Virus record (IMG/VR): IMGVR_UViG_3300038461_000302
Location: 1 to 26,861 of that record
Source of the DNA: a virus
DNA length: 26,861 nucleotides
Direction: 5' to 3' (one strand)
Part shown: positions 4,417-26,253 of the stretch, piece after piece
Position numbering within the stretch: position 1 is the first letter of the stretch
Layout of the letters: the number at the start of each line of letters is the position of its first letter
The notes under the pieces: model-generated
Databases searched by the model: none
Told to the model about the DNA's origin: nothing
Seen by the model: the letters and a program-made list of their open reading frames with translations, nothing else
Program-made: the position numbers and the translations under genes

Positions 4417-7300
4417 GGTCGTCGGGCTCCTTGACGGCCTGCACCCCACGGCTCAAACGTAGAACCAGGTCACCGAGTCCCTTGAACGTCGACTGGAGGT
4501 TGTCCTCGAGACCCGAGAAGGTCTGCTCGCCGATCTGCGGCTTGAGGTCGGACTCCTGCATCCACAACGTCAGCATGACGCGCGCGAGGTTGTCGACCGC
4601 CTTCTCGAGGTTCGGCAGGTACTGCCCAACCACGCCATGCAGCGCCGGCGACTGTGCGAGCGTGGCCACGGCGGCCGCGTCGAACATGTCAGCCGAATGC
4701 AGCTGTGCTGCTTGATCGAGGAAGTGCGGATTGACCTCCTGCGGAAGCGTCTGCGCGTTCGGACCGTCTGGCGGCATCATCGCGTTGGGTGGCTGTTGCT
4801 GCTGACCCATCGACGGATCCATGCCGGGCTGTCCGCCCATGCCGCCCATCTGAGACGGGTCCATGCCCATCGACGGATCCATGCCGGGCTGTCCGCCCAT
4901 GCCCATCGACGGATCCATGCCAGGCTGTCCGCCCATGCCCATCGACGGATCTTGCGGCGGTTGCCCGCCCATCATCGACGGGTCTCCGGCAGCAGGCGGG
5001 AACGCACCGCCCGGCGGCATGCCAGGAGGAACCGCTGCGCCCTGTGACGGGTCCTGCGGAGGCGCACCCATGCCCGCAGTCATGCCAGGCGGCATGCCCG
5101 GTTGGCCAGTCGCGAGGTTCATCGAGGATGGAGGAGCGCCCATCGCCTGCGTCTGCACGCTCGGCGCGGGCGGTGCACCGCCGGCGATCTCGGACGACCG
5201 TTGGAGCAGCATCTGGATGGTCTGCTGCTTCTCGACCAGCTTCTGCATCTCCTGTTGGATGTGCTGGTCCATCTCCATCGCCGCGAGGTCGAGCGGAGCG
5301 GGCGGAGGCGGAGCGGGCGGAGGTGCCATCGCAGCCATCGCAGCGTCCTGTCCCATCGACGACGGATCGCCGCCCATGCTCGGATCACCGCCCGGGGGAC
5401 CTGCATCTGCACCACCGCTCGGCGGTGCCTTCTTCTTCGGCTTGTCGCCGCTGTCCGACTTCTTCTTGTCGTCGTCTGCCGCGAGCTTGTCGAGCTGCAT
5501 CTGAACGCGCGCGAGCTGCTGGCTTGTCGCGATCCACGCGGACGTCATGTGGTCAGCCGCTGTCTTGACGAGCAGCGCCTCGGCGTCATCGACCGAGATG
5601 TTGCACGCGAACGCGAGCTTCTTGAGCGCCGGCACGAAGCTCATCGGAGCCATGCCGTTGATCGAGAACTGCTTGGCGCCCGCGTCCTTGATCGAGACCT
5701 TCTTCGCGCCGACTGCGGAGAGCATGCTCGACACGCATGCCTGCAGATCGAGCGCGGACTGGAACCAGCTTCGCTCGTTGAGGCGCTCCTTGAGCGGCAC
5801 CCAGATGAAGTCCGCGGGGAGGTACGCAATGTCCGCACCCTTGGGCATCCAGATCGTGTTGTAGGGGTGTGCCGGGTCCGTCGAGATCGTCTTCTCGGGA
5901 CCGAAGTCGCCGCTCGTCGCGCGAATCCGACGCACGCCGTCCGAGCCTGTCGAGATCGACTTGATCGTGACGGGCCCAGTCGCCTGGAATGTGGTGCCGC
6001 GTTGGCGGACGAAGAAGCCCTTGCCCGCCTTCGGCTCACCGCTGACGTCGGCGAACATGCGGGCGTGCAGCGAGCCCCCGACGCCATCGGCGATCGAGTC
6101 GCGACCCACGAGCTTGTTCGGCTCGATGTAGTCGCCGTTGTCGAACACCGCGAGGAACGGTTTGGCGTCATACCCACGACGGGTTGCGTAGCTGCCCTCG
6201 TCTGGTCGTCCGTGCGGGTAGACCTTGTTCGAGCTGCCGTGCGTTTCGGGGTCGGTGTACGAGTTGTCGACGAGCGGGTTGTGCGCAGGGACTGCCGGAC
6301 GGCGACCGTAGCGCGTGCCCTCGTCGAACAGATCGATCGGGAACGGCATCACGAAGGCCGTGCGCTCCTTGCCGTCGGAGGCGTAGAGCGTGTAGACGCC
6401 GGGTTGCTTGGGCTCGGTCCACCGCTCGTACGGTTGCTCCTGCACCGCCATGTTGCGGTTCAGGCGCTCGTCTTTCGCAGCGAAGCCCTTCTTGCGCACG
6501 CCCGCGTAGGCCTCGCCGGCCTTGTCGCCGAAGATGCGCTTGAAGTCGGTCGGCGTGTTGTCTTCGTCGGCGATCCAGAGGGCGCCGCCATGCTGCTGCT
6601 TGGCGGCGACTTTCTCGAGGCGCGGCTGCAGCGCGGCCGCAAGCGCCTTCATGCCGTACGTCGACGCCGCCTGCTTGAACAGCGTCGGGTTCCGCTCGAG
6701 CAGTCGAACGTAGGCTGCCTTCATCGTGTTCGGTGCCGCAGTGAGCAGCGCGGGGAGCATGAGTGCCGCTTCGCTCGCGACCTTCTCGAGCGTCTCCACG
6801 GTCATCACGCGTGCGACATCGACGAGTGCCTTGGGCACCCACGACGCGTACGAGAAGCGGCCCGTGATCGGCGGGACCACGACGTTGCGGATGTCGACGT
6901 CGGTGTAGAGCGTCTCGGGCGTTTTGACGCCGGCGCCCAGCGACGACAGTGCGTTCTTGTCGATCTCGTCGAGCCAGCCCTTGGAGAGCGGCAGGAAGAC
7001 GTTCAGGGCCTTGTGATAGAAGACCTCGAGCGGCTTGATGGCGTTGTCGACCATCACCACCGGAACGTAGATCGGTTGGTTGTGGCGCAGAACCACAAAC
7101 GACCCCACGCCCGAACCCTTGTCGATGTCGACATCGAGCACCTTGAAGGTGACGACGTCCTGCATCAGGTCAGGCATACGCGTCGACAGCAGGTTGTACG
7201 CCATCTCCGACATGCCCTGTTCGAACAGGGCTGTCTCTTGGTCGGGACCGGCGTTCATGCCCGCCTGTAGTTGCTGTGTGCGTGGGCTCATCGCCGGCAT
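4406..7300 (-). CDS. Large virion-type protein with Met/Gly/Pro-rich repeat region (964 aa)
   Basis: Unrecognised. The ATG at 7300 is preceded by GAGG at a good spacing and lies 12 bp after the previous stop. Residues 1-620 look globular: an N-terminal part (TFKVLDVDIDKGSGVGSF), a helical part (YGMKALAAALQPRLEKVAA), then a beta-rich part (KPFLAVFDNGDYIEPNKLVG, TFQATGPVTIKSIS). Residues about 620-870 are low complexity, with DKPKKKAPP, a coiled segment (MDQHIQQEMQKLVEKQQ) and repeats of GGQPGMDPSMGM. The last 95 residues are helical. Its size and position in the late operon suggest a structural or internal virion protein; DNA-entry or tail roles are equally possible. No enzyme motif is seen. 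Confidence 0.85.
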   Translation of the reverse strand: MPAMSPRTQQLQAGMNAGPDQETALFEQGMSEMAYNLLSTRMPDLMQDVVTFKVLDVDIDKGSGVGSFVVLRHNQPIYVPVVMVDNAIKPLEVFYHKALNVFLPLSKGWLDEIDKNALSSLGAGVKTPETLYTDVDIRNVVVPPITGRFSYASWVPKALVDVARVMTVETLEKVASEAALMLPALLTAAPNTMKAAYVRLLERNPTLFKQAASTYGMKALAAALQPRLEKVAAKQQHGGALWIADEDNTPTDFKRIFGDKAGEAYAGVRKKGFAAKDERLNRNMAVQEQPYERWTEPKQPGVYTLYASDGKERTAFVMPFPIDLFDEGTRYGRRPAVPAHNPLVDNSYTDPETHGSSNKVYPHGRPDEGSYATRRGYDAKPFLAVFDNGDYIEPNKLVGRDSIADGVGGSLHARMFADVSGEPKAGKGFFVRQRGTTFQATGPVTIKSISTGSDGVRRIRATSGDFGPEKTISTDPAHPYNTIWMPKGADIAYLPADFIWVPLKERLNERSWFQSALDLQACVSSMLSAVGAKKVSIKDAGAKQFSINGMAPMSFVPALKKLAFACNISVDDAEALLVKTAADHMTSAWIATSQQLARVQMQLDKLAADDDKKKSDSGDKPKKKAPPSGGADAGPPGGDPSMGGDPSSMGQDAAMAAMAPPPAPPPPAPLDLAAMEMDQHIQQEMQKLVEKQQTIQMLLQRSSEIAGGAPPAPSVQTQAMGAPPSSMNLATGQPGMPPGMTAGMGAPPQDPSQGAAVPPGMPPGGAFPPAAGDPSMMGGQPPQDPSMGMGGQPGMDPSMGMGGQPGMDPSMGMDPSQMGGMGGQPGMDPSMGQQQQPPNAMMPPDGPNAQTLPQEVNPHFLDQAAQLHSADMFDAAAVATLAQSPALHGVVGQYLPNLEKAVDNLARVMLTLWMQESDLKPQIGEQTFSGLEDNLQSTFKGLGDLVLRLSRGVQAVKEPDDHAS
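4806..4940 (-). repeat. 36-bp tandem repeats encoding GGQPGMDPSMGM
   Basis: Two adjacent near-identical 36-bp units (4863-4898 and 4899-4934, one base different) are flanked by a third diverged copy (from about 4806) and a truncated fourth (from 4935). Each in-frame unit encodes the 12-residue GGQPGMDPSMGM. Further degenerate copies (QPPQDPSMGM, DPSMMGGQ) extend the low-complexity region. The number of units could vary between isolates. Confidence 0.9.
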
Positions 7301-7312
7301 ATGGGACCTCGT

Positions 7313-7480
7313 CTACGCTGCTGGGAAGGACACGACTTTGGGGAGATTCGCGTCAGGGAGGCCGCCCAGCTGCTTCGTCTTCTGCGCCTTGAGCGAGCCG
7401 AGGGTCGGATTCAGGATCTCAGCTAGCTTCTCTTCGACGACGCGTCGCCCCATCTCGCGAATGTGGCGCGGAAGGCTCAC
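7313..7480 (-). CDS. Small basic protein (55 aa, GTG start)
   Basis: This short frame fills the gap between the 443- and 964-aa genes. Its GTG forms a GTGA overlap with the 443-aa gene's stop, the same junction type used elsewhere in the operon, and its TAG lies 12 bp before the next start. The product begins with a basic helix (RHIREMGRRVVEEKLAEIL) and ends in a Pro/Leu tail (KVVSFPAA). No family is recognised. The overlap and the otherwise empty gap support it being real; an in-frame ATG at codon 10 is an alternative start. Confidence 0.65.
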   Translation of the reverse strand: MSLPRHIREMGRRVVEEKLAEILNPTLGSLKAQKTKQLGGLPDANLPKVVSFPAA

Positions 7481-8808
7481 GCGCGCTGAGCCGCGTCGAT
7501 GCGACGGAAGAAGTCGCGGAGCGAGGCCTCCTTGTGCTCTTCCTTCTCGTCCTTCTTCGACTCGCCTTCCTCGTGCTTCTTGCCTTCGATCTTCTCGCGG
7601 ATGAAGTCGGGCATGCCGCCCTTGTCATCCTTCTTGTCGTCCTTGTCGTCGTCCTTCTTCTCGTCCTTCTTCATGAAGGGCGGAAGGTCGTCGGCCTGCT
7701 TGGTGCCCTGGTTGCCAGAGCGACCGTCGTAGGCGCCGGGCCGCGAGTGCGTCGCGTCCGGGTTGTGCTCGCGGTAGCGGTCGCTGCGCGAGCCGGGCGG
7801 AACCTCGGCAGGCGCGGCCGCCGTGCGATCCACCGCCTCCTTCTGCAGGCCGCGGAGGTAGTACGCCTTCTCCTGGGTCGTCATGCCCATGCAGGCACGG
7901 ACGGCCGCGATCTTGGCGTCCTCGGTGATGCTGCCCGGAAGGAACTCGTGCACCTCGGCGGCGACCTTCTTGAAGAGCGCGATGTACGGGTCCTCGGCCG
8001 CTGCCTTGGCCGAGTGCTGCGTCACCGAGTTCGAACCGCTGGGCGACTCGCCCGGCTTGTTCGGCTGCGCCGTCTCCTTGCCGACGACCGCGGGGCCGCC
8101 GACGAGGTTCATCATCGCGCCGAGAGCGCCCTGCGTCGGCAGGACGGCGTAGCCGGCAGGACGCTGCGAGGCGTCCATCTTGGCCTCGGCCGAAGACATC
8201 TCCTTGTTGCCCTTGTCGCCGCCCATGATCGTCGAGCCCTCGGCCGACTTGCGGAAGAGGTCTGCGAGCGACGCGGTGCGCGAGTGCTCCTGCACCGAGT
8301 TGTCCTTGGAGTCGGTCTCCTTCGGCTTGTTCGGCTGCTCCTCTTCCTTGCCGACGGTGCCGGGCCGCGTGTCGACCTCGGTCTTGCCACGGCTGTCCTC
8401 GGCGTAGCCCGGAGGACGCTGCGAAGCGTCCATCTTGGTCTCGCCGGCAGGCGCCTCGGCTTGGGTGTTCCCCTTGTCACCACCCTCGATGGTCGAGCCC
8501 TCGGCGGCCTTCGTCATCAGCTGGGTTGCGTTGCGATCCGCGAGCTGCGCGACGTCTTCCCACGTCGCGAGCTTGTTGAAGCTCGCCGCCTTGAAGCCGG
8601 GCTGCTGCTTGATCCAGTCGGAGGCAGCGACCAGGTCCGTCCCGATCTTGTGGGTCGCCTCGCGCGACACGCCCTTCAGGGGATCGATGTCGACACGGTC
8701 AGCGATGTAGTCCGCGACCTTGGCCGCGGTGGTCTCGTCGGGGAACGCGGCGGCGCCGCTGTTGACCAACGCGGTCTGGATGCCTCGGACGTACGCATGC
8801 TTGAACAT
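7477..8808 (-). CDS. Structural-operon protein with internal duplication (443 aa)
   Basis: Unrecognised. The ATG has GAGG at a good spacing and follows a 72-bp gap, the largest in this operon. The N-terminus (FKHAYVRGIQTALVNSG) matches the short G..dAL motif of neighbouring proteins. Residues 102-179 and 189-269 are two copies of one module: AEGSTI.GGDKGN, KMDASQRP.GYA, VGKE..QPNKP and NSV..HS. They are joined by a short SLADLFRK linker, and a related SLRDFFRR occurs near the C-terminus. Residues about 375-430 are an extreme Asp/Glu/Lys stretch (DEKKDDDKDDKKDD). The pattern suggests a multivalent, partly disordered virion or scaffold-like protein; no function is assigned. Confidence 0.85.
   Translation of the reverse strand: MFKHAYVRGIQTALVNSGAAAFPDETTAAKVADYIADRVDIDPLKGVSREATHKIGTDLVAASDWIKQQPGFKAASFNKLATWEDVAQLADRNATQLMTKAAEGSTIEGGDKGNTQAEAPAGETKMDASQRPPGYAEDSRGKTEVDTRPGTVGKEEEQPNKPKETDSKDNSVQEHSRTASLADLFRKSAEGSTIMGGDKGNKEMSSAEAKMDASQRPAGYAVLPTQGALGAMMNLVGGPAVVGKETAQPNKPGESPSGSNSVTQHSAKAAAEDPYIALFKKVAAEVHEFLPGSITEDAKIAAVRACMGMTTQEKAYYLRGLQKEAVDRTAAAPAEVPPGSRSDRYREHNPDATHSRPGAYDGRSGNQGTKQADDLPPFMKKDEKKDDDKDDKKDDKGGMPDFIREKIEGKKHEEGESKKDEKEEHKEASLRDFFRRIDAAQRA
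8002..8505 (-). repeat. Two tandem ~80-residue modules in the 443-aa protein
   Basis: Unit 1 (8272-8505, residues 102-179) and unit 2 (8002-8244, residues 189-269) share four ordered blocks at offsets of 87, 85, 90 and 90 residues: AEGSTI.GGDKGN, KMDASQRP.GYA, VGKE..QPNKP and NSV..HS. The DNA is similar but diverged, so this is an old intragenic duplication. Confidence 0.85.
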
Positions 8809-8880: not shown

Positions 8881-9120
8881 CTAACCGAGTGCGCGGGCCT
8901 TCGGGGCCCCTGCTGCCATGGGAGGTGCAGCAGATGTTGGAGCGGCCATCGCGGGAGGCAGCGGCGCTGCCATCCCCGCTGCACCTGGACTACCGGACGT
9001 GGCACCACCGGCACCAGCCCCACCGACATTCATACCACCTGCACCCATGCCCATGCCTTGAGCAAGCTTGAAGCGGACGAGTGCGTCGGTGCGGCCCTTG
9101 TTATAGGCGTCGTTGATCAT
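8881..9120 (-). CDS. Small Gly/Ala/Met-rich protein with shared N-terminal motif (79 aa)
   Basis: Unrecognised. The ATG overlaps the stop of the 148-aa gene (ATGA). Residues 1-20 (INDAYNKGRTDALVRFKL) carry the motif G..DAL.RFK, also seen at the N-termini of the 140- and 148-aa proteins. The rest is low complexity (GMGMGAGGMNVGGAGAGG, then Ala/Pro-rich). Such a short motif on an otherwise disordered chain could be a docking or packaging tag, but this is inference. Confidence 0.75.
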   Translation of the reverse strand: MINDAYNKGRTDALVRFKLAQGMGMGAGGMNVGGAGAGGATSGSPGAAGMAAPLPPAMAAPTSAAPPMAAGAPKARALG

Positions 9121-9563
9121 TGATAGGGGTCCTTCGGTTTACTGCCGAGTAGATGGCCGAGGCCGCGTCCAGCACGTGCGCCCGCTTGTGCGAGGAGAGG
9201 TCCGCCGAGCATGCCGAGCGTGGGGAAACCGTATGCGCTCCCCGCGATTCCACCAAGCGCGCCGAGCGCGTTTGACAGGTGTCCCTCGTGAGGGTTCGAG
9301 CGCATGGCAGAGAGTGCCATGAGAGGTGCTGCAATCGTGCCTGCACGTCCGATCCAGTTCAAGGGCTGACCCTTGACGCTGGGCCACCATACATTCTTGG
9401 TGGAAAGCATTCCGCCTGGAGAGAATGTACCCGGCCCCTCTACAAAGGCGCGGCCAGGTTGTCCAATGAACGTCTGTTTGATGCCTTCCATGATGCCTGC
9501 ATCTTTGACTTGGAAGCGCGCCAGGGCATCTTCGATACCCTTTGCATGTGCACGAACGATCAT
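9117..9563 (-). CDS. Small hydrophobic Gly-rich protein with shared N-terminal motif (148 aa)
   Basis: Unrecognised. The ATG shares one base with the stop of the beta' C-terminal gene (TAATG). The N-terminus (IVRAHAKGIEDALARFQVK) has the G..DAL.RF motif. Residues about 68-135 contain glycine-spaced hydrophobic segments (TIAAPLMALSAM, NALGALGGIAGSAYGF, LGMLGGPLLAQAGARAGRG) that could form membrane-active helices. It resembles the 149- and 189-aa proteins in composition. Its tight coupling to the RNA polymerase gene suggests coordinated production. A role as an ejected or internal virion protein is possible but unproven. Confidence 0.8.
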   Translation of the reverse strand: MIVRAHAKGIEDALARFQVKDAGIMEGIKQTFIGQPGRAFVEGPGTFSPGGMLSTKNVWWPSVKGQPLNWIGRAGTIAAPLMALSAMRSNPHEGHLSNALGALGGIAGSAYGFPTLGMLGGPLLAQAGARAGRGLGHLLGSKPKDPYQ

Positions 9564-11344
9564 TAGTACTGCCCCTCTTCACCAAGGCCGAACTCTGTAC
9601 CCGCAACGTACGCAGGAACAGGTGACGCTCCGTGTAGGTTAGAGACATCGCCACGATGGATACCCGTCAGCAATGACTCCTTGAGGTATCGGTGAGCGAG
9701 TCTTGCCATCCAGTCCGGGTTGAGGAGAGGTGTACGGGACGCAGGACGCATGAACGGCAACGCGCGCGGCCCTTGGCTGGACGTCATCACGGACGTCACG
9801 CCATGACGAACAAGCTGGTCCGCGATGGGTTGCGTCACGACAGTACCTGCCGTGTGGTGGAGGATGCCGTCCGCGAGAGTCTCACCGATCGCATCGGCTG
9901 TCGGGAGACGTTTCTTGGCGGCAGCCAGGGACGCATGGAACCGATTGTAGTCTACGACGTCCCCTTTGATGAAGGCGTCATCAGGTCCCGGGTCCACGAT
10001 CTGAACGTGGTTGAGCACGCTCTTGGCGAGCGTCTCGAGGTGGCGTTTGTCGACCTCAGAACCCGCGCGCTTGTATACGTCGGAGAGCGCATCGACGAGG
10101 TAGCGACGACCTTCGCCCAGGCCCTTGTGTTGAACGATCTCGTCGGGCTTGGGCACACCATCAGAGAGCAAATCGCCGGCGTACACGGACTGTCCGACGC
10201 CGACCACGACCTTGTGTGCAGGTGGCACGTAGTGGCTGCCGTCGCCCACGAAGACGTAGTGCCCACCCTGCGGCGCCTTGTCGACCTTCGTGATGGAGCC
10301 GTCACGGTCAGCCAACACGGCCTTGTGCGCGAACGACGTTGGGATCTCGAGCAGCGCCCGCACGCCCTTGATGCCCTCGAGCCGCTTCTCGTCATCAACG
10401 CCGACAACACGGCCGCCGTGCTTGGCATTGAGCGCAAACTGTGTGAGGGGCTCAGCGAGCGCTTGCGCTGCACGCACGCCGACGTTCGTTCCGATCGAAT
10501 GCATGCCTCCCGAAGACGACAGGCCTTGGCAATGCTGGCAGACGCCATGCGCAGCTTCGCAGGTCATCGGCGAACGGACGATGACCTCCTTGCCCTCTTT
10601 GGCCAGATGCGCTGCGTACTGCGGGGTGATCAGTTTGTTCGTACCGGCTTGGTAGCGGTCGATGAGATGCGCATCTGTCGGCAACATCGCGATGCCGTTC
10701 TTGGTGCCGCAGTCCACCGTCGTCACGAGCTGGTCGCCCATGTTGTTGACGAGGATCTTGGCGAGGTCTCCAGGCTCGACCACTGAGATGTTCGAGACCA
10801 CCGCGTTGACGCGCGCCTGCCCACCCATGATCCACGCGTCCGCGGGCTTGAGCCCTTCGGAGAAGCTCTTGTCGACGAGCCACGGGATGACCTTGCCCTT
10901 GGAGTCCTCGGCGAATACGGGAGCACCCACGGTACGCATGAGCTGTGCTGCATTGCCACGACCGCCCGCGCGCACCATCTCTCCCATCGTGCCTGGGTGG
11001 TTGCGTGCGAGCGTGAGCATCGCGTTCTGTCCGCCCACGAGCGCCTTGACCTTGTCCGTGTTGGTCGTCGCCTTCCGAAAGGCTTCGACGTGCGGCTTCA
11101 ACGCAGCATCGCGCTCGGAGATGCGCGGCGCGATGTCATCGAGGCCGACGGAGATGCCGTCGAGCGTTGCGACCTCGTCTCCGAGCCGCTTGAGCTTGGT
11201 CACGACGTCGGGGTACTTGCTCACGTCTTCCTTGGCCACGCCCAGAAGCACGTTGTTCAGCACGCCCTTGGTGAGCACGCCCTTCCCCTGCCACTTCAAT
11301 GGAAGGATGGAATCAACGAGGTGCTGACCGAGCGTGGTTGCCAT
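9563..11344 (-). CDS. RNA polymerase beta' subunit, C-terminal half (593 aa)
   Basis: This is the C-terminal part of a bacterial-type beta' subunit, which contributes the bridge helix, trigger loop and jaw side of the core enzyme. Recognisable in order: a secondary-channel-side helical start; SFSEGLKPADAWIMGGQAR (to about residue 178), matching bridge-helix/trigger-loop sequence (E. coli NFREGLNVLQYFISTHGAR); the second zinc site C212 (DCGT), C262, C269, C272 with the bacterial x6 and x2 spacing; GVRAAQALAEPLTQ (289-302), matching GVIAAQSIGEPGTQ; and the conserved C-terminal block GDLLSDGVPKPDEIV to VDALSDVYKRAG. About 100 residues after that are only weakly bacterial-like. The large lineage insertion of E. 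coli beta' is absent. Two small genes separate it from the beta/beta' N-terminal gene. Confidence 0.96.
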   Translation of the reverse strand: MATTLGQHLVDSILPLKWQGKGVLTKGVLNNVLLGVAKEDVSKYPDVVTKLKRLGDEVATLDGISVGLDDIAPRISERDAALKPHVEAFRKATTNTDKVKALVGGQNAMLTLARNHPGTMGEMVRAGGRGNAAQLMRTVGAPVFAEDSKGKVIPWLVDKSFSEGLKPADAWIMGGQARVNAVVSNISVVEPGDLAKILVNNMGDQLVTTVDCGTKNGIAMLPTDAHLIDRYQAGTNKLITPQYAAHLAKEGKEVIVRSPMTCEAAHGVCQHCQGLSSSGGMHSIGTNVGVRAAQALAEPLTQFALNAKHGGRVVGVDDEKRLEGIKGVRALLEIPTSFAHKAVLADRDGSITKVDKAPQGGHYVFVGDGSHYVPPAHKVVVGVGQSVYAGDLLSDGVPKPDEIVQHKGLGEGRRYLVDALSDVYKRAGSEVDKRHLETLAKSVLNHVQIVDPGPDDAFIKGDVVDYNRFHASLAAAKKRLPTADAIGETLADGILHHTAGTVVTQPIADQLVRHGVTSVMTSSQGPRALPFMRPASRTPLLNPDWMARLAHRYLKESLLTGIHRGDVSNLHGASPVPAYVAGTEFGLGEEGQY

Positions 11345-11345
11345 G

Positions 11346-11768
11346 TCACATCGGCGGGTAGCCGCCGCCCATCATCGCGCGTTGCCGGGCCTGTTCCTGG
11401 TCCTGCTTGTGCTTGTGCATCAGGTAGAGCCCACCGCCCGCGAGGAGTGAAGGTGCGAGCGTCTTGAGATTGCCGATGGCGCCTTGTCGCGCGAGGGCGC
11501 CAGCAGCAGCATCGGGGGCTCCGCCGAGGCCCTGGCGCAGGTTGCCGAAGAGGGCCTTCGCCGCGCCCATCTGTCCCTGTCCAAAGCTCTTGGCTTTGTC
11601 CATGAAACCGCCACCAGCGGCCGCTGGTGCCGCCGCCATGGGACTTCCTGGACCTGCTCCGCCCAGCTCGATGTGTGACGCGGGCGCCCCTGCGGGGCCT
11701 AGTCCCATGCCGATCTTGAAACGCGCCATCGCATCACGACGGCCTTGGTTCACGTAACGGTCAAGCAT
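11346..11768 (-). CDS. Small Gly/Ala-rich protein with shared N-terminal motif (140 aa)
   Basis: Unrecognised. The ATG shares a base with the preceding stop (TGATG), and its own stop is 1 bp from the beta' C-terminal start. The N-terminus (LDRYVNQGRRDAMARFKIG) carries the G..DA..RFK motif. The middle is Gly/Ala/Pro-rich. A short hydrophobic segment (LKTLAPSLLAGGGLYLM) precedes a charged tail (HKHKQDQEQARQR). It lies between the two RNA polymerase genes, so it is made with them and could be a packaging partner or an accessory factor (inference). Confidence 0.78.
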   Translation of the reverse strand: MLDRYVNQGRRDAMARFKIGMGLGPAGAPASHIELGGAGPGSPMAAAPAAAGGGFMDKAKSFGQGQMGAAKALFGNLRQGLGGAPDAAAGALARQGAIGNLKTLAPSLLAGGGLYLMHKHKQDQEQARQRAMMGGGYPPM

Positions 11769-12229
11769 CAGACGCCTCCGAAGCTGGTGTTCTGTCCCAT
11801 GTCGCTGAGTCGACTCGCGGTGTCACCGCCGGCGAGGTTCGCAGGAGACCCCCACGCGGTAGTACGATCGAGCGGATCACGTGTGGCCAGCTGTACATCA
11901 GGAGACACGTCCGCGTCGATCTGCTTGAGCATGTCAGCGAGGTTGTCCGCAGTGCCGTCAGCCTCGGCCTTCTTCGAACCACGATCGGCTTCGGCCTTGT
12001 GCGCCGCGTCGTAGCCGTGGAACGTACGGCTCGGGATCTTCAGGCGCAGCTCCTCGGCAGCGTGCTTGAAGCCGAACCGCTCGAGCGCGTCTGCGATGCC
12101 ACGGACGTGTGACTTCTTGACGTGCTCGGGCAGCTTCTTGCCTTTGGGCGTCGCCTTCGCGAATTCCTTCGCGACCTCAGGTTCTTTCGCGAAAAGATAC
12201 CTGCGCTGGGCCTCGGACTTGAAAGGCAT
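11768..12229 (-). CDS. Small phage protein with MPF.S.AQRR.LFA N-terminal domain (153 aa)
   Basis: The first 37 residues (MPFKSEAQRRYLFAKEP, then TPKGKKLPEHV) match a short conserved phage module of unknown function that I recognise as widespread in phage genomes (MPFkS.AQrr.mfA..P..A..w...Tp.gk.LP). Residues about 40-55 (SHVRGIADALERFGFK) carry the same G..DAL.RF motif found at the N-termini of the 79-, 140- and 148-aa proteins. The C-terminal half is hydrophilic and probably disordered. It starts 11 bp after the stop of the RNA polymerase beta/beta' gene. Function unknown. Confidence 0.82.
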   Translation of the reverse strand: MPFKSEAQRRYLFAKEPEVAKEFAKATPKGKKLPEHVKKSHVRGIADALERFGFKHAAEELRLKIPSRTFHGYDAAHKAEADRGSKKAEADGTADNLADMLKQIDADVSPDVQLATRDPLDRTTAWGSPANLAGGDTASRLSDMGQNTSFGGV

Positions 12230-12240
12230 ACCGACAGGTA

Positions 12241-15200
12241 TTATAGGCGCTTCCCTTTGATTTCGATGGGATCGTTGAGCGCGATGTCCCCGCGATGGTA
12301 GGCCGCCATCGCCTCCTCTTGAGACTCGAAGTGCTTGGTCTTCGAGCTGCTGGCCGCCTGCGTTGCACGGTGCAAGCCCAGCACAGCTTCCATGTCTGGC
12401 GCGATGTTCAGAACGCCTGGACGCTTGTCCGCGAAGATCATGTGCGAGAGCGTCATCCTCTTGACGTCTTCGACACCCCCAGGCGTCACAGGCGCGTGGA
12501 TCTGAAGCGCGTCGCCGTCGTAGTCCGCATTCATGCCCTTCTCGGCGAACGGGTTGAGCTTGAGAGTCTTGCCCTCAACAATCTTGGGGTACGCGCCCAC
12601 GATGTTGAAACGGTGGAGTGACGGTGCCCGATTCACCATGACTGGGCGTTCACGTGATTCGTTGACCAGCTCTTCGCGCGCAGTTGGCGTGCGGTCATCC
12701 ACCATCTTCTGTGCATCGGTTGCTGTATAGCCGCGTCGGACCAAACGCCCGATGACAAACTTGCTATACATGCCCCAGAGCATGCCTTCAGGCACGCCGA
12801 TCTCGTCCATCGAGAGCGTCGGGTCGGGCGCGATCGTCGCGCGTCCACTCACATCCTGCTGTCGCTTCATCAGGCGGGACTGGAAGAACCCGCTCCCTGG
12901 ACGGGTTCCCGTGATCGCCGCGAGGTAGCCCTTGGCGCCACGCTTCTCCGCACCAGGGCTCACAGGGTCGCCGACGCCGTAGAGCGCGCTCACCGCATCG
13001 TACAGGTGCCGCCGTGGACCTGGCAGCTCGGACGATGGCAACGACTTCGCGGACGTCTTGAGCTGATCGTTTGCGAGGAAGGCGTCCTTGTAGAGCAGGT
13101 TCGCGTCGCTGACCTGAAGACGCCCATCCTTGAGCGGCAGGATTGGCCGAATCACAGGCGGTGTCACCGGCACCTTCGAGATGACGTAGGCGTCTTCGGG
13201 CTTGAGGTCACGGTCCTTCAACGCCTCGAGGTACTTGATCTGCTTCACCACACCGTCGAGCACTGGCCCACGTGCCTTCTTCGACTGCGCGAGCAGGTCT
13301 TTCAGCTTGTCGTCGATGTTGATCTCGCCGAGCGCGGTCTTGAACCAGTGACCACCCTTGCCGACGTGCTCGGTGAACTCCTTCTGGGTCAGCCCGAGAA
13401 GTCGACGCACTGGCTCTTCGAACACAGGGTTGACGATCGGTTCGTGCAGGTCAACGTGCGACCACTTGGTGCCCGACATGCCGCCAGTGATCCCTGGATC
13501 GAACAGACCGTCGGTCTCGGGGCGCAGGTCCTTCGCACGGATCAGCTTGCTCGGGTCCTTGAGCACGCCCGAGGACATCGACTTGACGTCCGCATCCGTG
13601 AGCGGGCCGAGAGCCAACCGCGACCCCGTCTTCGTCACCTTGACGCCAGCGCCCGTGAGCATGCTCTGCAGCTTGTCGTAGGCGAACGGTGTCTTGGGCG
13701 ACGGCGTCGGCAACCCGAGTTGGATTGCACGCCAGAACTCGTCGTTGCGCTGGCTCTTGATGGACGCGGCTTCACGCAGCACGTTACGCGCGTTGTGCGC
13801 GACGAGCCCGTCGAATTCCATCTTGCCGATACCCTTGGCACCCTCGTCGCCACCGCGTGCGGGTTGTTGGTTGTAGTCGTACTTCTCGGCGCCGTGCGCT
13901 GCCCAGTTGGAATCGGTCGTCTTGAAGAGCTTCAGGATGTAGCTCTTGCCGACCAGCACGTTGGGAACCTTCTTGCCCGTGACGGGGTCGAGGACCGTCT
14001 CCTTGTCAGAGAGGCCGTGCTCCTCGAGCAACTTCTTGGCGAAGGCGACGTTGTCACGGCCTGGCGTGTACTGCGGAATGACGATCGGCTTGCCCGTCTT
14101 CTCGGCGACCTTGCCGAGCGCGGTCTCGATGACTTGTGCCGGGTTGATGCGCGAAACGATGCCGGCTGACGTGAAGAGAAGATCGACAGGACGCCCCTGC
14201 GCGTCCTGGATCATCTGATGGTCGGGCACGATCTTCGCGATCACGCCTTTGTTGCCGAAGCGGTTGCACAGTTTGTCGCCGATCTGCAGCGTCTCTTGTG
14301 TGCGGATCGATGCCGCGGCCTGACGGGCCGTCTTCGCAACGTCGACGACAGTGCCCGGTCGATCGTGCGTCCAGGTCTCGACCACTTCCTCGTAGGGCTT
14401 GACCAGCGACTTGGAGAGCTTGCCAAGCAGGAGCGCGTCACCCGTCACCTTGTTCTCACGGATGCCCGCAGCGATCAGGTCCCCTTTGTGGAGGGTAACG
14501 CCTGGCTTGACGACGCCGTCTTCGTCGAGCTTGTCGTACTGGTCCTTGGTGTAGCGACTGCCGAAGTAGGTCCGGTGCTTCTCGCGTCCGAGCTGCACGT
14601 CACCCTCGCGTGAGAGCGCGTGCTGGTACATATGCTCGCTCGTCAACTTGTCCGCCGCACCCTGCGAGACGACGATGCCGTCGTTGGTGTTGAGGCCACG
14701 GTAGGGCATGTACGCCACGCGGAGGTTCGTTCCAAGCGCGAGCGTACCGTCCTTGGTGAAGTTCGAGTCCGCGAGGAGCTGATCCTTCTCGACGCGATCG
14801 CCGACCTTCACGGTCAGCGTGTTGTGCAGCATCGTCTTGGCGGCGAGCGGAAGGTTGGTGTCGTAGTGGAGCTTCGTCGTGACAGCCGCGGTCTTTGCGT
14901 CCGGCTCGATGTGGATCCAGTCATCGTCGATCTTCGTGATCGTGCCTGCTTGTCGTGCCGTCGGAACGATCAGCTTGACCATCTCCCGTTCGACCGACGT
15001 TCCTGGCTTCCACGATGCCACCTGGACGAGCGGCGCCTCACGGTGCGTCAGCGGTAGCGCTTGACCTTGATGTTTGCTCGCCATGAGCACGCGGTTCGCC
15101 TGGATGCCGTAGAGCAACGGCAGAAGGTTCGACGTCGGGCCATACTGGTCTGCGACATGTTCCAGCTGGTGGGTCACACGGTCCGACGACACGCGCGACA

Positions 15201-16602
15201 CGACACCGTGCGCCATCGCATCGACGATCTTCCCCGGCCCCAGGTTTTCACCAGGGAACGCGATGATCGACTTCGCCATGTCGCCCGCCTTGAGGTACGT
15301 CGACTTCTTCGCGGCAACGTCGTAGACCGGAGCGTAGAGGTTGCCCTTGTCGTCGCGCCGAGCCCCGATCGTGGCCCGAAGGTCGACACCCACCTTGAAG
15401 CTCTCGGGTGTGCGTGCGGGGTCAAGAATCCCGAAGTGTGTCGGATGGACATCCCGAGCTTCGAGCGGGATGGCACGCTCCGACGCGATCGCACCCTCAC
15501 CGAGCATCGTGACGCGGGATGCTTCGTCGAGCAGCTCCATCGGGTTGATCTGCATCGGGACTGCGGAGAGCGACGATCCAACCAGAAGCCCGTGCATTGA
15601 ACGCGTGAACGGACCAGCAGGCAGCGCCTTCTTCAGGTTCCCGTGATTCGCGTCGAGCTTCCAACCGAGCTTCGCGCGCATCGCACGCGCCTCGAGCTGC
15701 ACACGTTCTTTGATGAAGTCGTCCGCCGAGTGAAACGTCTTGAACGCCAACGAGTCTCGATCGTCGACATCGGCAGCGGCCTTGTGGACATCGAGCAGCT
15801 TCTTGGAAGCAGCCAGGATCGCGGATGCCGACGCCTTGTCGTATGGGTAGCCCAGCGTGTGCGTCGTGACCTCGGGATCCATCGACGTCTGGTCGAAGTA
15901 CTCGCGTAGCACGCGAGACTTCTCTTCCGTCGTGGTCGCAGTCTGCTTGGCCGGATGTACGAGCGTCTCGTAGAGCTTGCTGACGTGCTTGTCGGGGTTC
16001 TTCCAAGCGTCACGATTCATGCTCGCGATCTCGGGCCCCCAGCTCGCCGCGATATCCTGGTGAGGCATCCCAAGCGCACGGAGGACCGGATGCAGCGGGA
16101 TCTTCGTGGTCGTGTGTGATGGCTGCATGTAGAGGAGGCCCTTCTCGGGCTCCATCGACACGCGGAAGTTCGCGCCCTTCGACAGGTTGAACGTCGCCTC
16201 CAGCTCGTCATTGCCACGGCGGCGCACGTACGCACCTGGCTTCGTCCTCAGCTGGTTCGAGACGGAGTACTCCGTGCCGTCGAGGATGAAGGTGTGCCGT
16301 GGCGTGAAGTACGGCAACTGCAGCAGGGTGAAGTCCTTGGCGTGATCGACCACACCACCTGCAGCGTCCTTGACGGTGACGTCGCCACGCACCCGCTCTG
16401 ACAAGGTCTTGCCCTCGAGCACCGCACGCTTTTGATCATGGGACGAGTAGTCCTGCGGGTCGACGCGCACGTTCGACACCTCGATCGTGTGCTTGCCGGC
16501 CTTGAGCGGGAACGATTGCTCGAGGCCTTCAACGACCTTCTTGCGGATCATCTCGCGACGCGTGGCCGCGTCCTCGAGGATGGGTCGTAGATTTGGCAGC
16601 AT
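12241..16602 (-). CDS. RNA polymerase: beta subunit fused to the N-terminal half of beta' (1453 aa)
   Basis: One open frame joins a complete beta subunit (about 1-975) to the first half of beta' (about 1005-1453). Beta landmarks: FILDGTE (105-111), near-identical in form to E. coli FVINGTE; GDKLCNRFGNKG (775-786) with both active-site lysines (K777, K785); and the terminal GG..G..KGIGKMEFDGL switch region. Beta' landmarks: LRPETDGLFDPGI (DGLF at 1031-1034), VPVTPPVIRPILPL, KRQQDVSGRATIAP, VNRAPSLHR (1323-1331) and the Mg-binding NADYDGD (1358-1364, Asp1360/1362/1364). The beta' N-terminal zinc domain (CxCGKYK...C..C) is missing: LFDPGI continues almost directly into the HIEL-like part. The frame ends about 90 residues after NADYDGD; the rest of beta' is a separate gene two genes downstream. 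Rpo fusions exist in Helicobacter and rpoC splits in cyanobacteria; I do not know of this combination. Confidence 0.97.
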   Translation of the reverse strand: MLPNLRPILEDAATRREMIRKKVVEGLEQSFPLKAGKHTIEVSNVRVDPQDYSSHDQKRAVLEGKTLSERVRGDVTVKDAAGGVVDHAKDFTLLQLPYFTPRHTFILDGTEYSVSNQLRTKPGAYVRRRGNDELEATFNLSKGANFRVSMEPEKGLLYMQPSHTTTKIPLHPVLRALGMPHQDIAASWGPEIASMNRDAWKNPDKHVSKLYETLVHPAKQTATTTEEKSRVLREYFDQTSMDPEVTTHTLGYPYDKASASAILAASKKLLDVHKAAADVDDRDSLAFKTFHSADDFIKERVQLEARAMRAKLGWKLDANHGNLKKALPAGPFTRSMHGLLVGSSLSAVPMQINPMELLDEASRVTMLGEGAIASERAIPLEARDVHPTHFGILDPARTPESFKVGVDLRATIGARRDDKGNLYAPVYDVAAKKSTYLKAGDMAKSIIAFPGENLGPGKIVDAMAHGVVSRVSSDRVTHQLEHVADQYGPTSNLLPLLYGIQANRVLMASKHQGQALPLTHREAPLVQVASWKPGTSVEREMVKLIVPTARQAGTITKIDDDWIHIEPDAKTAAVTTKLHYDTNLPLAAKTMLHNTLTVKVGDRVEKDQLLADSNFTKDGTLALGTNLRVAYMPYRGLNTNDGIVVSQGAADKLTSEHMYQHALSREGDVQLGREKHRTYFGSRYTKDQYDKLDEDGVVKPGVTLHKGDLIAAGIRENKVTGDALLLGKLSKSLVKPYEEVVETWTHDRPGTVVDVAKTARQAAASIRTQETLQIGDKLCNRFGNKGVIAKIVPDHQMIQDAQGRPVDLLFTSAGIVSRINPAQVIETALGKVAEKTGKPIVIPQYTPGRDNVAFAKKLLEEHGLSDKETVLDPVTGKKVPNVLVGKSYILKLFKTTDSNWAAHGAEKYDYNQQPARGGDEGAKGIGKMEFDGLVAHNARNVLREAASIKSQRNDEFWRAIQLGLPTPSPKTPFAYDKLQSMLTGAGVKVTKTGSRLALGPLTDADVKSMSSGVLKDPSKLIRAKDLRPETDGLFDPGITGGMSGTKWSHVDLHEPIVNPVFEEPVRRLLGLTQKEFTEHVGKGGHWFKTALGEINIDDKLKDLLAQSKKARGPVLDGVVKQIKYLEALKDRDLKPEDAYVISKVPVTPPVIRPILPLKDGRLQVSDANLLYKDAFLANDQLKTSAKSLPSSELPGPRRHLYDAVSALYGVGDPVSPGAEKRGAKGYLAAITGTRPGSGFFQSRLMKRQQDVSGRATIAPDPTLSMDEIGVPEGMLWGMYSKFVIGRLVRRGYTATDAQKMVDDRTPTAREELVNESRERPVMVNRAPSLHRFNIVGAYPKIVEGKTLKLNPFAEKGMNADYDGDALQIHAPVTPGGVEDVKRMTLSHMIFADKRPGVLNIAPDMEAVLGLHRATQAASSSKTKHFESQEEAMAAYHRGDIALNDPIEIKGKRL

Positions 16603-17012: not shown

Positions 17013-18806
17013 TTACATACCTGGAGCCGCCGGAGGTGCGCCACCACCGGAAGGATCGCCACCACCCTGACGCGCGGCCGCGATCGCCTGTTGGTTCTGT
17101 TGCGTGGTCTGGTCGTGCATGCGCTCCTTGACGACCGCGTACATCACCATGTCCTCGGTCTGCAGCGCGTGCATCTGCGATTGCCGACTCCCCGGGTCCA
17201 GCCCCATCAGCTGCTGGATCACCTGGTCTGCCTGTGCGATCACGGCTTGCTGATCGTAGGACAGGCCCTGCTGCCCCATCTGAGCTTGCGCGCGCGCCTG
17301 CGAACCCAAGTTGTTCTGGCGCTTCTGCATCTCGACCTGCAGCTCTTGTGCGGTACGCGCATCGTCGATCGCTTCCTGCATGCGCCACTTGCGCTCGTCC
17401 GACGGGTCGATGTCGAACGCCTCGCCCATCGTCCGCTTGGAGATCCAAGGTCCGGTCGAAGGGTCCGCGCCGTTGAGTTGTAGGAGCAGTGCCTTCTGTT
17501 GCACGTCGTCGATGAAGCGGAACGGCGCGAGTGAACACGTCACCGTGCCGCGTCCCAGCTGCTTGGCCGACTTGTCCGTGACCCATTGCAAGAGGTCGTT
17601 GAGGTCGCCCGTCTGATGGACGAGCTGGTTCTCGAGCACGCGGAGCTGGATGCCTGAGCCCATCGCGGAGAAGCCGCCGTAGATGAACTCCTTGGGCAGA
17701 CCCATCGCTGCGATGATGTTGTCCTCGGCGGCCTGGACCTCGCCGAGCGTCATGAGCGCGCGCGCCTGACCGCCAAGGTGCGTGACCTCAGCAGGGATCG
17801 GCGACCACATGATGTGGAGGGGATCCCGCCGCCACTTCTTGACGCTGGTTTTCATCTCGTCGGACCACTTGGCCAACGAGATGGTGGTCATTGGGTCGGC
17901 ATTCGCTGACGATTGCTTCGGCGAGATGATGCGCAGGGGGACGATGTAGTCGAGGGCGATCGCTTCGTTCGCCTTGCGGAGCACCGCGGCGTAGAAGAAC
18001 AGCTTGATCGTCGACGCGAGCGGAGGGAAGCCCCACTGGGCCTCGATGCCCGCAGGCGCGTCCATCCGCATGTGAAAGACTTGACCCTCGGCGAACTTGA
18101 AGATCTTGTCCGAGCGGATCGTCTTCAAGAACTCCATCGGCATCGTGTCGATGAGGTGCTTGTTCCCCTTGGCGCAGCGCTCCTTAATCTCCTTGGGGAT
18201 CGTGTAGTAGTACTCGCTGTGCCCGGTGATGGGGTTGTAGTCGATGTCCATCAACTTCGGGTCCCAGCGGATCACCGAGATTCGGTCCTTGCGTGTGATC
18301 TTGCGATCGATGACGTCCTTCTCACCGACGTCCACCTTCACGGTGCATCCCTTGCACGTGTAGTTGAAGGCGAGCTTCTTCAGGTTGAACTTGTAGGTGA
18401 CCTGGTGGATGTTCGTCAGCGTCTGGCAGCGTGGGCACTTCAAGAAGCGCACGAACGGCGCGTACATCGAGAAGAACGCGTTGCCATAAACGAACTTGTC
18501 GACGGCCGCTCGGATCAGGACGCGCTTCGTCTTGAGCGTCTTGTCGTGCAGGTCTTCGTAGTAGCTCTTGAGCGCTTCGTTCTGCGTCTCGTAGATGATG
18601 TCGGTGACCGGGTACGTGCAGAACTTCTGCAGCGCGGCGTAGATCTGCGCGCTGTTGAAGTAGAGGTACTCGCACAACCGGAAGAGGTCCTTGAGCTTCC
18701 TGGGCGCGAACGCGGTGAGGAAGTCGAACAGCGGACTTCCGTGCGACGACGTGTTTTGTGTCGACAGGTCGGAGATACCCGGGTCGAACATTCCATCAGT
18801 GGCCAT
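17013..18806 (-). CDS. Phage portal protein with zinc-finger-like insertion (597 aa)
   Basis: Portal proteins form the dodecameric DNA gate at one capsid vertex. Supporting features are the length (portals are often 450-600 aa), the N-terminal helical region, the wing/stem part (VFHMRMDAPAGIEAQWGFPP, then FFYAAVLRKANEAIALDY), the typical late segment AAEDNIIAAMGLPKEFIYGG with LRVLENQ, and a long Gln/Ala-rich C-terminal helix and tail. An unusual insertion has two CxxC pairs (C124/C127 and C151/C154), which could bind zinc. The ATG at 18806 has GGGG 6-7 nt upstream and is the first gene of the minus-strand operon, divergent from the SNF2 gene 43 bp away. The family call rests on sequence pattern and context, not on a database search. 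Confidence 0.85.
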   Translation of the reverse strand: MATDGMFDPGISDLSTQNTSSHGSPLFDFLTAFAPRKLKDLFRLCEYLYFNSAQIYAALQKFCTYPVTDIIYETQNEALKSYYEDLHDKTLKTKRVLIRAAVDKFVYGNAFFSMYAPFVRFLKCPRCQTLTNIHQVTYKFNLKKLAFNYTCKGCTVKVDVGEKDVIDRKITRKDRISVIRWDPKLMDIDYNPITGHSEYYYTIPKEIKERCAKGNKHLIDTMPMEFLKTIRSDKIFKFAEGQVFHMRMDAPAGIEAQWGFPPLASTIKLFFYAAVLRKANEAIALDYIVPLRIISPKQSSANADPMTTISLAKWSDEMKTSVKKWRRDPLHIMWSPIPAEVTHLGGQARALMTLGEVQAAEDNIIAAMGLPKEFIYGGFSAMGSGIQLRVLENQLVHQTGDLNDLLQWVTDKSAKQLGRGTVTCSLAPFRFIDDVQQKALLLQLNGADPSTGPWISKRTMGEAFDIDPSDERKWRMQEAIDDARTAQELQVEMQKRQNNLGSQARAQAQMGQQGLSYDQQAVIAQADQVIQQLMGLDPGSRQSQMHALQTEDMVMYAVVKERMHDQTTQQNQQAIAAARQGGGDPSGGGAPPAAPGM

Positions 18807-20835: not shown

Positions 20836-21218
20836 AGATTGTAGTTACGTACGAGGCATCCGACATCACACGCCTGATCAAACAGGACTTGGCCCAGCAG
20901 GGCATCATCGCGATGGATGGCGACATCAAGTACGCCAAAGGCCACGCCGTTGTGTCCGTCGAGGTCACACGTGAAGATGTGCCCTTGACGCCGTCGATTC
21001 CTGAAGCTCCTGGTGCTGCAGCGACGAGCGACCCTGCGCCCTCATCGGCCGCTCCGCCTGCGCTCGCCGTCGTCGATGGTGGTCAGGCGCCCGTCGACAT
21101 GGACGCAATCCTGCGCGCCTCGGCCAAAGCAGCCGCAACCAACCCGGGCAAGTTCCCAACACCCGAACGTCAACTCATGGAAGGGGAGTCCTTTGACTTC
21201 CCAGGAGGAAAGCGATGA
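20832..21218 (+). CDS. Protein of unknown function between helicase and nuclease (128 aa)
   Basis: Unrecognised. Both ends overlap neighbours by ATGA, so it is translationally coupled to the SNF2 and nuclease genes; AGAGGG precedes the start. The N-terminal 50 residues look folded (KIVVTYEASDITRLIKQDL, then HAVVSVEVTRED). A Pro/Ala/Ser linker follows (about 52-80). A C-terminal helix (MDAILRASAKAAATNPGK) ends in an acidic tail with GESFDFPGGKR. The tight coupling suggests a partner or adaptor of the helicase or nuclease. Confidence 0.8.
   Translation: MKIVVTYEASDITRLIKQDLAQQGIIAMDGDIKYAKGHAVVSVEVTREDVPLTPSIPEAPGAAATSDPAPSSAAPPALAVVDGGQAPVDMDAILRASAKAAATNPGKFPTPERQLMEGESFDFPGGKR
21203..21208 (+). 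promoter_or_regulatory. Strong Shine-Dalgarno (AGGAGG) of the Cas4-like nuclease gene
   Basis: AGGAGG ends 6 nt before the ATG at 21215 and lies within the last codons of the 128-aa gene. It is the best consensus ribosome site in the window and confirms the start. Confidence 0.85.
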
Positions 21219-24054: not shown

Positions 24055-24846
24055 CTAGAGGTACGCGTCCTCGGTCGACAGACCGACCCGCTGCTTCAGC
24101 TCGTTGTGCAAGAGCTGCATCCCGCTGAGCTTGATCTGACGAACGCGCTCGGGGCACATGCCCATGATGGATGCGATCTGGACCAGGTTTCGCGGGTCGT
24201 CTTTGACGCCGTAGAAGAGGTTGAGCACCGTCTGCTCTCGCGTGGGCAGGCGGCTGATGCCTTCACGCACGAGAGCGCGAAGGCGATCCGACCCGTACGT
24301 GGACGTGGGTTCGGAATCCGCAACGTCTGGCGTATAGCGCGCGGCCTCGAGCGGCATCACGATGCTCTCGGAGAGTCCGGGGTTCATGGCGCGCACGCTC
24401 GCGTTGTCGGGACCGTGCTCTTGGACGGCCGCACGGTACTCACGGGCGTTGCGGCGCTGAGCCTTCTGGCGGTGCGCGGGGACATGTACGAGCGTGGCGG
24501 TCGTGTAGTCCTGGTTCGACATCTCCTCGTAGACCCACCAGCCGGCGTACGTCAGGAAGCGGATGTACGGCTTGCGCGCCCAGTCGAACTTGTCGGTGGC
24601 CTTGAGAAGCCCGAGGTTCCCGGCGGCGATGAAGTCCTTGACCGCCTCGGGGTCTTTGCTGCGTTTGTGGGCCAGCTTCACGACGAATCGGAGATGCGTC
24701 TGCACGATGGCGTTGCGTGCCTTGACATCCTTGCGTTGTTGCCAGCGTTGCAACAGGCGGCGCTCCTCGGCGGGATCGTCCACCAACGGCATTCGCGCAA
24801 CTTCCGCGTAGTACGTCGAAGCGGTCCGAGCCTGTGGGATCACCAT
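24055..24846 (-). CDS. Sigma70-family RNA polymerase sigma factor (263 aa)
   Basis: A phage-encoded sigma factor that directs a core RNA polymerase to promoters. Region 1.2/2.1 begins with DPAEERRLLQRW and NAIVQTHLRFVVKLA (45-59). Region 2 has DFIAAGNLGLLKATDKFDW (71-89) and the promoter-melting/-10 part FLTYAGWWVYEEM, which differs from the housekeeping WWIRQAI. Region 3 has LVHVPAHRQKAQRR. Region 4 has LPTREQTVLNLFYGV and the -35-binding helix-turn-helix NLVQIASIMGMCPERVRQIK (220-239). The ATG at 24846 is chosen; the open frame runs upstream to a TTG at 25059 but that leader is not sigma-like. It is monocistronic, opposite to its neighbours. It could serve the phage's own polymerase or the host core. 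Confidence 0.94.
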   Translation of the reverse strand: MVIPQARTASTYYAEVARMPLVDDPAEERRLLQRWQQRKDVKARNAIVQTHLRFVVKLAHKRSKDPEAVKDFIAAGNLGLLKATDKFDWARKPYIRFLTYAGWWVYEEMSNQDYTTATLVHVPAHRQKAQRRNAREYRAAVQEHGPDNASVRAMNPGLSESIVMPLEAARYTPDVADSEPTSTYGSDRLRALVREGISRLPTREQTVLNLFYGVKDDPRNLVQIASIMGMCPERVRQIKLSGMQLLHNELKQRVGLSTEDAYL

Positions 24847-26111: not shown

Positions 26112-26229
26112 GGCAACGAGACCAAGGAAACGAAGAGCCTCTGGATAGTTGATGCGGGTCGCGCCCGTACGGAACAAGGCAATTGGTCGCCGCCAGAAAC
26201 ATTCGTGACGGTTGGAGAGACAACTGACA

Positions 26230-26253
26230 GCCGGAAAGACGGCGCTTTTTTTT
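26230..26253 (+). terminator. Candidate short-stem intrinsic terminator
   Basis: GCCG-GAAAGA-CGGC (26230-26243) forms a 4-bp GC stem with a hexaloop, followed by GC and eight T residues (26246-26253). The stem is short, but a T8 run is conspicuous in this GC-rich DNA. It lies in the 157-bp gap between the 346-aa gene and the nuclease gene, just upstream of the latter's start; it could be a terminator or leader attenuator. The rest of 26112-26229 holds only a minor inverted repeat (about 26155-26168). Confidence 0.4.

Follow-up and report, generated by a model that had tools for sequence, protein, structure and literature searches.

The IMG/VR virus record IMGVR_UViG_3300038461_000302, analysed here over its entire 26,861 bases (hereafter the window; the record is itself a fragment), contains two genes that together encode the catalytic parts of bacterial RNA polymerase (RNAP) subunits beta plus beta'. 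One gene joins beta to the N-terminal half of beta' (the beta-beta'N fusion), and the other encodes the remaining C-terminal half (beta'C). We consider it likely that the two chains form a self-contained virion multisubunit RNAP that would dispense with alpha, use a sigma factor and serve the early genes of a tailed phage resembling Salmonella phage Arash. The catalytic competence of this enzyme we infer from its residues, and its packaging and use of sigma from its relatives and gene content.

Architecture and active site of the two RNAP chains

The fusion gene (12241..16602, minus strand) is a single open reading frame (ORF) of 1453 amino acids, identified from the ORF, Pfam and alignment, with matches to Rpb2_3, Rpb2_6, Rpb1_1 and Rpb1_2 all in one frame, that to Rpb1_1 being sub-threshold (33.9 bits, cut-off 39.7). 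Beta occupies residues ~1-985 and is followed by a junction (~985-1045), after which the clamp, coiled coil and catalytic barrel of beta' extend to residue 1453; the N-terminal zinc domain of beta' is not present in the fusion when aligned with E. coli. The beta barrel motif GDKLCNRFGNKG (14245..14280, minus strand; residues 775-786) contains both catalytic lysines by alignment, and the catalytic Mg-binding motif NADYDGD (12511..12531, minus strand; residues 1358-1364) aligns with D460/D462/D464 of E. coli beta'. From D1364 the chain runs a further 89 residues to its C-terminus. A preliminary description of the window had reported such a fusion gene, ending about 90 residues past NADYDGD, with a separate beta'C two small genes downstream, and both its coordinates and its account of the content hold. 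Between the RNAP genes lie ORFs of 153 amino acids (11768..12229) and 140 amino acids (11346..11768), both on the minus strand, of no assigned function and also present in close relatives. Beta'C itself (9563..11344, minus strand; 593 amino acids) matches Pfam Rpb1_5 and comprises the Zn2 cysteines C212/C262/C269/C272, the bridge helix, the trigger-loop residue H309 and the C-terminal region.

Profiles and structure prediction agree on the identity of both chains, each of which contains Pfam beta or beta' domains and is predicted to adopt a fold matching bacterial beta or beta'. Residues 255-1453 of the fusion were modelled with a predicted local distance difference test (pLDDT) of 79.1 and a predicted template modelling score (pTM) of 0.65, the model matching bacterial and plastid beta with listed Z scores of 32.6-35.3, mostly over model residues 25-720. 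Because the structural matches listed (VIA-align) cover mostly the beta part, the lack of beta' chains among them is uninformative. The beta'C model (pLDDT 84.5, pTM 0.71) matches bacterial beta' with a Foldseek probability of 1.00. Neither RNAP protein of the window passes an NCBIfam equivalog cut-off for cellular rpoB/rpoC: the best model for the fusion, PRK09603, scores 367.7 bits against a cut-off of 5372, and the rpoB model 291.8 bits against 801.15.

By alignment, beta' is broken between its catalytic barrel and the half that contains the bridge helix, near E. coli beta' 570. The last residue of the fusion corresponds to E. coli beta' 569 in the big alignment, pairwise extension placing it at ~555, and the start of beta'C aligns opposite E. 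coli KDTTVGRA. A relative with a single uninterrupted chain (locus L181) reads through this point as NGKRTTIGR, where the window has KGKRL, a stop and then MATTLGQ, so that the gene appears to have been cut with little or no loss. Fusion residue 1448 aligns to residue 552 of 619 in rpoC1, and beta'C residue 123 to residue 124 of rpoC2; the phiKZ-type and cyanobacterial cuts in beta' likewise coincide after the barrel (PMC7598289).

Alignment to E. coli places conserved residues in the window at beta D814, K1065, K1073 and R1106, and at beta' R425, P427, D460/D462/D464, R731, R780, Q929 and H936 as well as the four Zn2 cysteines; the residue letters come from the alignment, and the functional roles of these positions are those we take them to have in E. 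coli. The claim that the key motifs are intact therefore stands for the catalytic aspartates and lysines, the bridge helix, the trigger-loop histidine and Zn2, but has to be qualified for beta E813 and beta' R933, both replaced by Asn, and for the absent N-terminal zinc domain. Across ten family rows, D460/D462/D464, K1065, K1073, R1106, D814, R425, P427, R780, Q929 and H936 are conserved in all ten, each of which, like the window, has the DxDGD of beta' and the two beta lysines. The N-terminal zinc columns C70/72/85/88 are gaps in all ten; these cysteines are conserved in Cobetia phage Carin-5 and Yersinia phage GN1, which we take to be mReC-type phages (a type described by Weinheimer and Aylward in 2020; the assignment comes from this analysis and is not a published one), and the bacterial row bSac93 lacks both cysteine sets. 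As the preliminary description also held, the window enzyme is probably active, a view supported by the conserved catalytic residues. It is tempered by the altered R731 of three of the ten family rows (L033, L181 and L213), by the loss of the Zn2 cysteines in L162 and by their not being invariant in A4. At rifampicin-pocket positions the window carries D516M, H526E and S531T, which suggests that the enzyme may be insensitive to rifampicin.

Arash-type relatives, subunit content and proposed role

The preliminary description knew of no phage that combines the fusion with the split, a view that needs correcting, since the two-gene arrangement is already deposited for Salmonella phage Arash (gp206 and gp216), Vibrio phage D69 (0261 and 0264), Vibrio phage D181, in which an out-of-frame, intron-like interruption with an annotated homing endonuclease divides the fusion gene, and Vibrio phage D148, which returned the same search rows as D181. 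For Arash it is also published, with Gp206 named 'subunit beta' and Gp216 'beta prime'; the available text of that paper describes neither the fusion nor the split (PMC10585845). The concern that well-described phages might show identical gene order is thus borne out in part: the order is deposited and, for Arash, published, but goes without comment in the accessible part of the Arash paper. Within the open-licence PMC literature we found no printed description of the fusion-plus-split.

The window shares with Arash ('Arashvirus') and D69 the beta-beta'N fusion (36% and 35% identity), the separate beta'C (31% and 33%) and a portal gene homologue just upstream of the RNAP. D69 also has exactly two small genes between the RNAP genes, whereas Arash has ~4.8 kb of other genes there. 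The window portal homologue (17013..18806, minus strand) matches neither Pfam nor PHROG by itself and was recognised by similarity to Arash gp204, annotated as portal (32% identity, E 1e-83, profile probability 100). An order of portal, fusion, beta'C, structural-protein homologue (4406-7300) and homologue of window 3-920 is common to the window, Arash and D69, and eight of the 26 window genes match each of the Arash and D69 stretches (E <= 1e-3). In the Arash particle proteome Gp206 ranks top with 3516 spectra and 128 unique peptides, Gp216 has 1210 spectra and the sigma factor Gp10 has 467 (PMC10585845); we use spectral counts because the coverage column is odd, with proteins of two unique peptides also given as 100%. 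The authors propose early transcription or carry-over for the particle RNAP (PMC10585845).

Thirteen records were searched for further subunits, twelve of them 102-188 kb long and some near-identical. No alpha (PF01193) was found in any of the 13, which may be incomplete, and no omega (PF01192) exceeded the cut-off, the only traces being two sub-threshold matches of 15 positions. This accords with the earlier statement that neither subunit is seen; given that the window has only 26,861 bases, the absence of alpha there proves little by itself; the search also covered the 12 other records. Sigma region 2 is present in ten of the 13, and the window encodes a sigma-70 family factor with regions 2 and 4 (24055..24843, minus strand, taking GTG as the start, although the frame may extend to 25059), a gene that the preliminary description did not mention. 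Each of the 13 has one beta locus, matched in two pieces around an intein-like insert in two cases, and a second phage RNAP was rejected on this count. The single-subunit RNAP profile PF00940 gave one sub-threshold match in the 13 records and none in 14 cellular control genomes.

We suggest that the beta-beta' fusion stands in for the absent alpha dimer and that beta'C would dock onto the fused chain. By analogy with Arash, the enzyme would be made late, packed into the head and injected with the DNA, whereupon it could transcribe early phage genes. The phage sigma may guide it through the beta' coiled coil and a flap-tip-like beta helix, both judged present by eye in the alignment. This picture of a packaged, injected and sigma-guided enzyme derives from the Arash particle content, the shared gene order and the subunit searches. 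Several observations weigh against it. The alpha search missed one of 14 control genomes, so that a very diverged alpha is possible. Packaging was measured in Arash only, whose two proteins share 36% and 31% identity with those of the window, and the Arash authors caution that enzymes present in large amounts may simply remain with the particles through purification (PMC10585845). In addition, the window sigma matches Arash gp196, whereas the particle sigma is gp10, and ten aligned intergenic regions upstream of sigma yielded short conserved blocks and no defensible promoter.

Some relatives carry in-frame domains at one site in beta, which corresponds to window residues ~565-578 (E. coli beta 734-751); in the window this is a short loop (14869..14910, minus strand). 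Among 84 distinct IMG/VR contigs that contain sequence of the fusion, partial in some, a GNAT acetyltransferase above the Pfam cut-off occupies the site in four (L019, L028, L030 and L031) and an inorganic pyrophosphatase (InPase) in six (L129-L132, L153 and L155), all above the cut-off and two only just. A third type occurs at this site in three (L122-L124), with one length common to these three, the L122 insert having no Pfam match. L019, one of the GNAT carriers, shares 89% identity with the window, where no insert is present. Both InPase and GNAT are parts of phage 'polyvalent proteins' that are likely to be packaged in virions, the clearance of pyrophosphate being one proposed role, and the text of that study nowhere uses the terms multisubunit or RpoB (PMC5512222). 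The AR9-type virion RNAP bears an HD domain on a beta fragment (PMC7598289) and thus provides a precedent for an enzyme domain on a phage RNAP. The insert slot may serve delivery or pyrophosphate removal. If active, RNAPs with a pyrophosphatase in beta, such as those of the six relatives, would themselves be of use in making RNA.

In-frame inserts of another, intein-like kind are found near window residues 400, 510, 779, 922 and 1045 and between 1291 and 1369, including, in L022-L024, inside the beta barrel motif with the catalytic lysines. The label follows from the ends of the inserts, its sole support being a LAGLIDADG_3 match just below the cut-off in L022. L171 (near 6504) and L188 (near 3680) share an apparent 7-base frame-breaking insertion and stop at the same place, directly behind the intein-like insert that interrupts their GDK..NKG motif.

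The same evidence bears on whether the enzyme belongs in the virion. It could instead be a non-virion RNAP for middle or late genes, like those of phiKZ or AR9, with the particle copies being the carry-over that the Arash authors name as a possibility (PMC10585845). The finding of only one multisubunit RNAP per record also fits such a role, as some stage must then be left to another enzyme, probably that of the host. We nevertheless regard this as unlikely, since no other protein of the Arash particle is detected as strongly as Gp206 (PMC10585845), the RNAP genes are flanked by the portal gene on one side and by more structural genes on the other, and InPase and GNAT, found in the beta of relatives, are domain types for which virion packaging has been described as likely (PMC5512222). 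Less likely again is a hybrid enzyme, in which the phage chains would assemble only with host alpha and omega: phiKZ-type phages make active RNAPs without alpha (PMC7598289), and the beta-beta' fusion would offer a direct alternative tether.

Distribution of the arrangement and order of events

Two IMG/VR scans, one contributing 24 loci and the other the best 80 of 87 loci, gave 86 distinct contigs, some near-identical, after 17 loci on contigs already seen were dropped. Beta'C alone as the query found 62 of the 86, so the fusion was not selected for among those contigs. Beta and beta'N share one ORF in all 82 distinct contigs with both in view. Where all three parts are in view (77 contigs), beta'C is a separate ORF in 73 and on the same ORF in four (L170, L179, L181 and L186, of which L179 ends at the contig edge). 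Over the 75 measurable contigs, the gap between the beta'N and separate beta'C open frames ranges from 456 to 5252 bases. A further break in the beta part occurs in four of the 82 contigs (L165, L171, L187 and L188).

A scan of cellular genomes detected phage-type fusions in three Desulfovibrio assemblies (G011-G013; loci L033, L034, L035 and L204-L209), with beta'C on another contig than the fusion in all three. Of 297 genomes in the phylum to which Desulfovibrio An276 belongs, 2 match at E <= 1e-80, An276 itself being one of them. A further genome from this phylum encodes a 2167-residue single-frame beta-beta' that belongs to the family (L213, G305:C8). Escherichia phage vB_EcoM_IME392 (L216) has a 504-residue beta' fragment and a 522-residue beta fragment with other genes between. 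Four phage-labelled records (OR844998, OR846602, CAKLQH020000005 and MT836236) were set aside as carrying ordinary bacterial rpoB-rpoC, apparently through contamination; such high-scoring records served only as bacterial outgroups.

The main tree (29 rows, 1544 columns; LG+C20 with posterior mean site frequencies, PMSF) was rooted on six bacterial rows. It recovers the family at 100/99 and the two-chain members as a clade at 98/95, present in 97% of 200 bootstrap trees, with the single-chain members paraphyletic at the base and forming one clade in 0% of these trees. The bacterial and mReC-type rows have an unsplit beta', so the simplest history is a join on the family stem followed by one cut; the rooted tree accordingly supports fusion first and a single later split after the barrel. 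A faster tree of 52 hand-picked rows, of which the 29 are a subset, agrees; rows that are partial or that carry an intein-like, GNAT or InPase insert were kept out of it, as were most, though not all, near-duplicates. In a beta'C tree, to which AR9, MarsHill, IME392 and RHph_Y65 were added, the two-chain clade has 91/91 and the AR9/MarsHill pair falls outside the family (86/100), on a long branch with an open fork. This placement, if it holds, indicates that the Arash-type cut arose separately from the phiKZ-type cut.

Other features of the trees count against this order. In the 52-row tree, support for the two-chain clade drops to 91 and there are open forks; a warning was also raised that long branches meet, that of the mReC-type with the bacteria among them. 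The beta'C tree unites the single-chain rows in 9% of its bootstrap trees, and the bacterial outgroup is narrow, lacking cyanobacteria, Helicobacter and archaea. What makes the order of events doubtful is chiefly this limited sampling of bacteria, together with the long branches.

The reverse order, in which an ancestral beta' was already in two pieces and the single-chain members are re-fusions, draws on these weak basal forks (open in the 52-row tree and 91/91 in the beta'C tree) and on the likewise post-barrel cuts of phiKZ-type and cyanobacterial beta' (PMC7598289). It is nonetheless improbable in our view: the bacterial and mReC-type outgroups have an unsplit beta', the beta'C of AR9 and MarsHill falls outside the family in the one tree that includes it, and the paraphyly of the single-chain members at the base of the main tree would demand at least two re-fusions at one seam. 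A sequencing or assembly error in an ordinary rpoC, raised earlier as a threat to the novelty, can be dismissed with near certainty, because 73 distinct contigs (some near-identical) have a separate beta'C with other sequence between and peptides of both proteins were detected in Arash (PMC10585845). Chance fusion or a sequencing frameshift is likewise ruled out by the shared ORF in 82 of 82 contigs together with the separate beta'C in 73 of 77.

Within one enzyme family represented by many sequences, there is a natural series that leads from beta and beta' as separate chains, through a single chain, to two chains cut elsewhere, which makes the replacement of alpha in assembly and the recurrent post-barrel cut of beta' testable with recombinant proteins. 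A more extended proposal, for which we see about even chances, is that a single-chain, sigma-using, alpha-free phage RNAP was re-split at the seam between barrel and bridge helix and became a virion carrier whose beta loop takes whole co-injected enzymes: InPase, which could clear the inhibitory product of the polymerase itself, and an acetyltransferase, which could act on host proteins.

Neighbouring genes and comparison with known RNA polymerases

Directly downstream of beta'C lies a gene of 148 amino acids (9117..9563, minus strand), the first base of which overlaps the last base of beta'C. Its product and the beta'C C-terminal extension of L029-L031 align with an hhalign probability of 68.6, compared with 0.3 and 0.1 for two controls, the second of which came from a poor alignment; a relationship between them is suggestive only. 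The extension measures ~380-500 amino acids (L029:16901-18403, L030:17111-18442 and L031:8151-9284). We note that a short, mostly N-terminal motif like G(I/R)xDALxRF is common to five of the 26 window genes, all adjoining the RNAP genes (7477-8808, 8881-9120, 9117-9563, 11346-11768 and 11768-12229), the search pattern having been derived from the same five sequences that carry it. For window 3-920 a family of unknown function is the better match, ahead of a head-maturation protease (E 2e-8), and two separate genes (21215-22129 and 26212-26859) match one and the same phage exonuclease family, phrog_69. Defence-system profiles gave no match to the window RNAP proteins.

Among cellular enzymes, the rpoB-rpoC fusions resemble the window in having beta then beta' in one chain. 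PRK09603 and PRK14844 presumably represent the Helicobacter and Wolbachia fusion types. In these beta' is uncut, and the window scores 368 bits against 5372. The rpoC1-rpoC2 pair of cyanobacteria and plastids is cut in the same linker after the barrel as the window, rpoC1 extending ~60 residues further than the window beta'N; in these enzymes beta has a gene of its own, and both alpha and omega form part of them. The window proteins match Pfam and NCBIfam beta/beta' models, unlike the crAss-like single-chain RNAP, which is too diverged for beta/beta' profile searches (PMC7481178).

Of the phage enzymes, the phiKZ/AR9-type shares with the window the absence of alpha and omega and a beta' cut after the barrel, and also exists in a virion form (PMC7598289). 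In that type beta is cut as well, each genome encodes two enzymes and no sigma is recognisable (PMC7598289), whereas in the window beta is whole and fused to beta'N, and the Arash-type records have one enzyme found and mostly (10 of 13) a sigma. A phage multisubunit enzyme that brings its own sigma-like factor but lacks alpha would constitute a minimal holoenzyme, to be set beside those of phiKZ and AR9. The mReC-type phages Carin-5 and GN1 are sister to the Arash-type family relative to bacteria (100/100, on a long branch), but differ from the window in their separate beta and unsplit beta' genes and their conserved N-terminal zinc cysteines. The window enzyme is thus in our reading Arash-type by gene structure and works like a phage virion RNAP; it is not phiKZ-type, as beta is whole, one set was found and sigma is present, nor is it mReC-type, as its chains are fused and the zinc domain is lost.

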